A stretch of DNA of 64,000 bases from a virus, in the IMG/VR virus record IMGVR_UViG_3300044796_000662, positions 298,938 through 362,937 of that record; one strand, given 5' to 3'. Positions 1,082 to 1,562 of the stretch are shown here, in pieces. The stretch's first letter is position 1. Every line of letters starts with the position of its first letter. The notes under the pieces are model-generated. The model worked only from the letters and a program-made list of their open reading frames with translations, did not search any database and was not told the origin of the DNA. Made by a program: the position numbers and the translations under genes.

Positions 1082-1207
1082 GCCCTCGCTCTACACCAAA
1101 AGCGGAACCCCGGAGAGTAGCCTTCCCCGGGGTCCCTTTGTGCGACTTGCGCCGCTCGTCTTTTTAGGGTGACCACTGGCGTTTAAGGTCGGCAGTGAGT
1201 CCTGAGC

Positions 1208-1303
1208 CTCTAGTGTCCTGTCGCTAGACGACCGCCCTGTAGGTGTTGCGTAGCTGCGCGAGGCAGCAGCAGGGTGGGCGGGATTCAAACCCGCGTCCTA
1301 GAG
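1208..1303 (-). tRNA. Candidate circularly permuted tRNA, Glu/Gln-like
   Basis: On the minus strand the 3' half comes first: anticodon-stem strand CTCTA (1303-1299), GGAC, T arm GCGGG-TTTGAAT-CCCGC, acceptor strand CCACCCT (1277-1271) and discriminator G1270. After a 31-nt linker comes the 5' half: acceptor AGGGCGG (1238-1232), TC, D arm GTCT-AGCGACA-GGAC, AC and TAGAG (1212-1208). Acceptor strands pair at 6 of 7 positions (one C-A), and TAGAG/CTCTA pair perfectly. The two halves total 65 nt, so a 7-nt loop gives 72 nt. The anticodon cannot be read. Joining is inferred, not shown. Confidence 0.5.
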
Positions 1304-1375
1304 AATTGTTGCCTTCCGTTCGATTGGCCTCCCGACGATGTTGCTGAGTCTGGAGTAGTAGTCTCAGGCTGAGCC

Positions 1376-1503
1376 GCGCTACGGGTTGCGTCTGCCAATT
1401 TCGCCACCCCCGTGTTGTCAGGTCCAGCCTTTACGGCCGGGCCTTGCACCCTGCGGTGCAGTACGGGGGGAAGGATTCGAACCTTCAGCTTTCGCCGTCG
1501 CGC
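1376..1503 (-). tRNA. Candidate circularly permuted class II tRNA, Leu-like
   Basis: The 3' half comes first on the minus strand: GCGCGAC (1503-1497), a short variable arm GGC-GAAA-GCT, T arm GAAGG-TTCGAAT-CCTTC, acceptor CCCCCGT (1469-1463), discriminator A1462. A 48-nt linker follows, holding a perfect tgcacc/ggtgca hairpin. Then the 5' half: acceptor ACGGGGG (1413-1407), TG, the tRNA-Leu-type D arm GCG-AAATTGGCAGA-CGC, AACCC and GTAGCGC. The acceptor is perfect at 7 of 7 and the linker of two nt to the D stem is canonical for Leu. The halves total 80 nt. The closing helix has one G-A mismatch and AACCC is an unexplained bulge. Confidence 0.45.
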
Positions 1504-1562
1504 TAGATGAGTCTGAATCTGAGTCTGAGCTTGAACTCCACTCTTGTCTTACACCGCCGAGG

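Follow-up and report, generated by a model that had tools for sequence, protein, structure and literature searches.

Two circularly permuted tRNA genes behind a DUF7873 gene in a phage genome, and their relatives in other phages

Can a phage carry a tRNA gene whose 3′ half stands in front of its 5′ half? This question is raised by positions 1208-1303 of a 64,000-nucleotide window (positions 298938-362937 of a 362,937-base IMG/VR virus record), where a phage version of a circularly permuted Glu/Gln-like tRNA gene had been predicted. Permuted tRNA genes are known from Cyanidioschyzon merolae, other algae and Thermofilum pendens (PMC3978253; for archaea, PMC3218864). An earlier count listed 34 such genes, spread over six algae and a single archaeon, which use the archaeal/eukaryal splicing machinery, and a circular intermediate has been shown in algae (PMC3978253). 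Our search of the open-access literature, with subscription papers and preprints outside its scope, found such genes in algae and archaea only and none in phages.

The locus lies on the minus strand, where the 3′ half (1303-1270) precedes the 5′ half (1238-1208), and the two halves together form a cloverleaf with tertiary pairs (Table 1). As predicted, the acceptor strands pair at six of seven positions, C5.A68 being the sole mismatch, and the outer ends pair as an anticodon stem across the break, at five of five positions plus a G-C pair at 32-38, which gives the 6-bp helix CTAGAG/CTCTAG. To these features we add a G-C pair at 15-48 and an exchange between the D loop (G18-A19) and the T loop (U56), in which A19-U56 replaces G19-C56; none of 180 ordinary phage tRNAs has U56. 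The anticodon is unreadable because the break falls within the anticodon loop: read from the loop ends, several registers fit and give inconsistent answers. The Glu identity is a guess from the D arm alone.

Table 1. Features of the permuted tRNA locus, in window coordinates.
Feature	Position	Strand	Remarks
DUF7873 (PF25283) gene, 250 aa	1563..2315	-	directly upstream of both permuted tRNAs
tRNA a, 3′-half flank	1487..1562	-	pairs with 1386-1310; outer helix CTCGGCGGTGT / ACATCGTCGGG
tRNA a, T arm (1486-1470) and acceptor 3′ strand CCCCCGT (1469-1463)	1463..1486	-	
tRNA a, A73 and linker, 49 nt	1414..1462	-	
tRNA a, acceptor 5′ strand ACGGGGG and Leu-type D arm TGGCGAAATTGGCAGACGC	1388..1413	-	acceptor 7/7; 15-48 A-U
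tRNA a, 5′-half flank (GCTCAGCCTGAGACTACTACTCCAGACTCAGCAAC..)	1320..1387	-	
tRNA b, 3′-half flank: ATC.A motif AATCGAAC, then helix P′ strand GGAAGGCA	1310..1325	-	alignment A4
tRNA b, anticodon stem, 3′ strand CTCTAG	1298..1303	-	6/6 pairs with 1213-1208
tRNA b, variable region GAC	1297-1295	-	
tRNA b, T arm GCGGG-TTTGAAT-CCCGC	1278..1294	-	stem 5/5; U56 compensated by A19
tRNA b, acceptor 3′ strand CCACCCT (1277-1271) and G73 (1270)	1270..1277	-	6/7 with 1238-1232
tRNA b, linker between the two acceptor ends	1239..1269	-	31 nt after G73
tRNA b, acceptor 5′ strand AGGGCGG	1232..1238	-	
tRNA b, positions 8-9 (TC) and D arm GTCT-AGCGACA-GGAC, Glu-like	1215..1231	-	
tRNA b, A26	1214	-	
tRNA b, anticodon stem, 5′ strand CTAGAG	1208..1213	-	
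tRNA b, 5′-half flank: helix P strand TGCCGACC, then TTAAACG	1180..1194	-	helix covaries

Neither ARAGORN nor the Rfam tRNA model RF00005 (cmscan, to E 5) gave a match to an ordinary tRNA at 1208-1303, so that by these two methods the site holds no complete Glu/Gln tRNA in the usual order. We also considered normal-order partners for either half and rejected them, since none fits. A covariance-model search allowing permuted halves had been named in the original prediction as a check. For such a model we took 34 ordinary phage tRNAs, cut each of them and put the pieces together again in permuted order. With a score of 31.4 bits (E 4.5e-8), it matched 1302-1209 over its full length. The only higher-scoring match in the window fell where two Asn tRNAs adjoin. 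Because the permuted model also scores such junctions of neighbouring tRNA genes, we used a second null of 2972 non-cognate half pairs, the two halves of a pair being taken from separate genes of the same phage. At least six Watson-Crick acceptor pairs were present in 2% of these and a perfect anticodon stem in 0.4%, and no pair had both; 70 of 152 true permuted genes passed the acceptor and anticodon-stem tests and also had the 15-48 pair.

The surroundings of the locus, which the original prediction did not describe, hold an adjoining DUF7873 gene, a second permuted tRNA gene and conserved flanks. The second gene, which we call ‘a’, is Leu-like and lies at 1486-1388 on the minus strand, just upstream of the first, ‘b’. 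Its flanks form a duplex whose energy was equalled by 1 of 200 shuffles, and CCGT/ACGG is the only candidate for its anticodon stem. Both genes belong to a minus-strand tRNA array at 269-303 kb of the record, with 51 ARAGORN genes in 265001-305000 and many orphan T arms outside ordinary genes. A phage ribosomal protein bL12 (Pfam Ribosomal_L12, 3.6e-26) is also encoded within the array (L003:6599-7012, minus strand, about 271.6-272.0 kb of the record).

Next, we analyzed the DUF7873 protein. It matches Pfam with an E-value of 1.2e-83 over profile positions 3-242 of 244, and its structure was predicted with a pLDDT of 94. The predicted fold had no match in the PDB (best E 0.12) and nothing convincing among viral models, and an open-access search found no literature on the family; its tie to permuted tRNAs is proposed here. 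The family also occurs in the bacterial genome of Deinobacterium chartae, which served as a control genome.

To what extent is this arrangement shared by other phages? BLAST found no DNA match to the window locus among phages, and a tblastn search found DUF7873 in 73 INPHARED phage records. We analyzed 12 cultured loci (GodonK, Racecar, Keelan, NiceHouse, Pam2, RHph_TM30, D505, RHph_Y1_11, FBKp24, PA-SR01, Ziko and K479); the hosts of the cultured-phage set are Gordonia, Arthrobacter, Rhodococcus, Pseudanabaena, Rhizobium, Vibrio and Klebsiella, and GodonK was isolated on Gordonia terrae 3612. All 12 loci carry one or two permuted tRNAs downstream of DUF7873 on the same strand, 17 genes altogether. 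When the two genes of the window are included, positions 15 and 48 are complementary in 19 of 19, and the acceptor stem is fully paired, with G-U allowed, in 18 of 19, the exception being b itself with its six of seven pairs.

We also searched IMG/VR, where a single DUF7873 sequence found nothing and an alignment of the family found 311 relatives, from which 80 loci were kept; these include near-duplicates, one being GodonK itself, and the independent cases are fewer. A permuted tRNA was present within 900 nt downstream of DUF7873 at 70 of the 80 loci, with two such genes at 49, and only two further matches occurred elsewhere in all the flanks. At 10 of the 80 no permuted tRNA was matched, two of these being cut by contig ends. 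This first scan required the 15-48 pair. We therefore refer also to a selection-free recount, in which 5′ halves were chosen by the D arm alone: among orphan T arms at most 900 nt after DUF7873 with a D arm just downstream, 77 of 91 had at least six Watson-Crick acceptor pairs, as against 1 of 19 elsewhere on the same strand, and 74 of those 77 had complementary positions 15 and 48. The link of permuted tRNA genes to DUF7873 is well supported, and the strongest check on tRNA b is that other phages have kept this arrangement.

The relatives of b share the layout ATC.A, P′, anticodon strand, T arm, acceptor strand, linker, acceptor strand, D arm, anticodon strand, P and TTAAACG. In alignment A4 of 28 b-type sequences, 97.4% of cells were paired with 228 double changes, 24 of 25 pairs had changed on both sides, and 0 of 500 shuffles reached the observed pairing, which was also far above that of slid controls. 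Rows were chosen by the acceptor, the 15-48 pair, both motifs and likeness to T and D arms; helix P and the 19-56 pair were not among the criteria. Helix P, which joins the flanks, showed changes on both sides at all seven of its pairs, and the acceptor and the 19-56 pair also covaried. U56 is present in three rows (the window, L218 and L222), and each of them has A19. In the window itself, helix P has six of eight pairs, with two mismatches. The ATC.A motif of the window is common to 27 relatives, themselves picked partly by the motif, and of 119 relatives, 42 have TTAAAC/TAAACG after the 5′ half, a motif by which the rows of A4 were chosen.

These results bear on the simplest alternative, that the halves are rearrangement debris from decayed neighbouring tRNA genes. 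The site does lie among other tRNA genes, in an array with 51 of them or more. However, the covariation across phages of unrelated hosts and the synteny with DUF7873 make debris scarcely credible here, and for the family as a whole this reading is already excluded by the covariation. We conclude that 1178-1325 is, with good support, a true circularly permuted tRNA gene and the second of two behind the DUF7873 gene, so that the predicted phage version of such a gene is upheld by a cassette that is conserved in cultured phages.

If this is the case, then how might such a gene yield a tRNA? The explanation that we consider probable, judging from sequence, is that the permuted precursor folds, its flanks are cut and its ends are joined into a circular pre-tRNA that gives a normal tRNA, with DUF7873 taking part. 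The precursor would run from flank through 3′ half, linker and 5′ half to flank, and it would fold as an ordinary tRNA with the linker bridging the acceptor ends. Helix P would clamp the anticodon-side ends beside the ATC.A and TTAAACG motifs; the flanks would be trimmed away and the ends on the anticodon side joined to each other, and RNase P and 3′ processing would then take out the linker to leave a tRNA in normal order for use in translation. Maturation of b through a circular or bridged precursor, as the original prediction had it, would be of this kind. The linkers of 108 relatives are 4-78 nt long, counting the discriminator. In 49 of the 108 permuted genes the discriminator is directly followed by CCA, compared with 59 of 259 ordinary tRNAs from these loci, and the next base is a C in 94 of the 108. 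Because CCA often stands there, the beginning of the linker looks like the 3′ end or trailer of a tRNA, which fits cutting at that point to form the 3′ end.

The motifs next to a covarying helix, and a flank order like that of permuted intron-exon designs, could also suggest self-splicing, with the flanks acting as a small ribozyme to make the tRNA circular. However, they are just about 20-40 nt long, Rfam gave no match to a ribozyme, a group I intron or any other known intron at the window site or its flanks, and a linked protein suggests protein help, so that we regard self-splicing as very unlikely. A two-piece tRNA would need no ligation at all: the linker would be cut and the halves held by the acceptor stem, the anticodon stem and helix P. 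Two-piece tmRNA of some bacteria has such a permuted gene order, with its ends held by pairing. It resembles the phage genes in the permuted order in bacteria and the paired ends, but it lacks an anticodon arm and remains two separate pieces, whereas in b the anticodon stem spans the break. The clamping of the ends by helix P in the b-type relatives and the inconsistent presence of ligase genes are in keeping with two pieces, as is a second permuted type (see below) that breaks in the variable region, where two pieces could still decode. In b, on the other hand, the break between the anticodon-stem strands would leave an unjoined product without a continuous anticodon loop, and the pairing of that stem is nevertheless kept across the break; a two-piece product is therefore unlikely.

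The tight linkage to one protein family and the unidentifiable anticodon raise the further possibility that the RNA is tRNA-like but has no part in translation, whether it belongs to a DUF7873 RNP, serves as a decoy against defences that cut tRNAs, or is a structured 3′ portion of the transcript of DUF7873. Since the tertiary pairs specific to tRNAs are preserved and the discriminator is so often followed by CCA, neither of which a one-arm mimic needs, we consider a role of this kind rather unlikely.

Returning to a circular pre-tRNA, which proteins might act on it? We searched for the archaeal-type tRNA splicing endonuclease domain PF01974, which was absent from 18 phages including that of the window and present in control archaea; this search of phage genomes bears on the algal/archaeal pathway and not on gene order. 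Joining may be carried out by an RNA ligase of the host or the phage, for example the RtcB that this phage encodes at the edge of its tRNA array (record 267060-268319, minus strand). RtcB also lies near a tRNA array in G001 (123416-124681). It was found in 11 of the 24 phages searched first (one partial), mostly those with permuted or insert tRNAs, against 532 of 50,697 phage records by tblastn, a rough contrast only, given that methods and genome sizes differ. Among 25 DUF7873 records, RtcB occurred in four and T4 Rnl1 in three; because both are found in so few, the ligase is not fixed, and we rejected RtcB as an obligatory partner. DUF7873 is the one constant partner of the permuted tRNAs and therefore a candidate factor, the likeliest dedicated one, as binder, nuclease or ligase. 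We tentatively suggest as a possibility that this protein, with a new fold, carries out or guides a bacterial route of tRNA assembly that is as yet undescribed, recognising the flank helix and ATC.A/TTAAACG, cutting the flanks and circularising the adjoining pre-tRNAs independently of BHB motif and endonuclease. Against catalysis by DUF7873, it has no fold match that would point that way.

Permuted tRNAs of a second type occur in other huge phages. They are opened in the variable region, with helices P1/P2 and the motifs CTC / ACANGC, and most of the phages that carry them are without DUF7873; positions 15 and 48 are complementary in 21 of 23, which was not a selection criterion. The type is also present in the phage of the window, at about 297089 (L004/L005) and 291757 of the record, and at L013, L016, L046, L065, L100 and others. 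Some of its linkers have just 2-4 nt (TTCG, GAAA), so that the acceptor stem resembles a capped hairpin. A normal-order version with this same insert exists. We considered this insert type (CTC...ACANGC) for the flanks in the window, found a partial match only, and dropped it given the DUF7873 relatives.

Several other unusual RNAs were seen. Normal-order tRNA-like genes with a structured insert of 50-60 nt between the anticodon and T stems (record 290.8-291.8 kb, L016:9200-10150, L013:4100-5300) have unusual D arms (GGGCACGGCGCCC), often lack U33 and are missed by ARAGORN. Whole tRNAs with a GCAAA/TTTGC-type acceptor lie inside flanks of the variable-region type (L016:9855-9922, L013:4614-4681, L046:7802-7874). 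A further permuted type, with an outer helix followed by CAGCAA, occurs at L079, L082, L118, L087, L123, L040 and L146, and one phage of this type encodes T4 RNA ligase 1. Rfam also matched a bacterial small SRP RNA beside permuted tRNAs in a 497-kb phage record (L046:8566-8658) and a group I intron (76.6 bits) just upstream of an orphan T arm (L016:8050-8280).

The algal and archaeal permuted tRNA genes are like those of the phages in having the 3′ half first, a linker between the acceptor ends and a cloverleaf. However, they depend on the BHB motif and the tRNA splicing endonuclease, a domain that the searched phages lack; the b-type genes have instead a covarying helix with ATC.A / TTAAACG and the linkage to DUF7873. 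RtcB and T4 Rnl1 of jumbo phages have been described as repairing cleaved tRNAs (PMC7824862); the phage of the window shares RtcB at its tRNA array, but these ligases accompany DUF7873 inconsistently. Thus, it seems that phages assemble tRNAs in a way of their own, apparently one not yet described. The conservation of permuted tRNA genes in phages of several bacterial phyla, cultured ones included, beside an uncharacterised protein points to another way of using the trick known from algae and archaea. Ordinary gene finders miss whole genes in phage tRNA counts, and the cultured phages with the cassette offer a tractable system.
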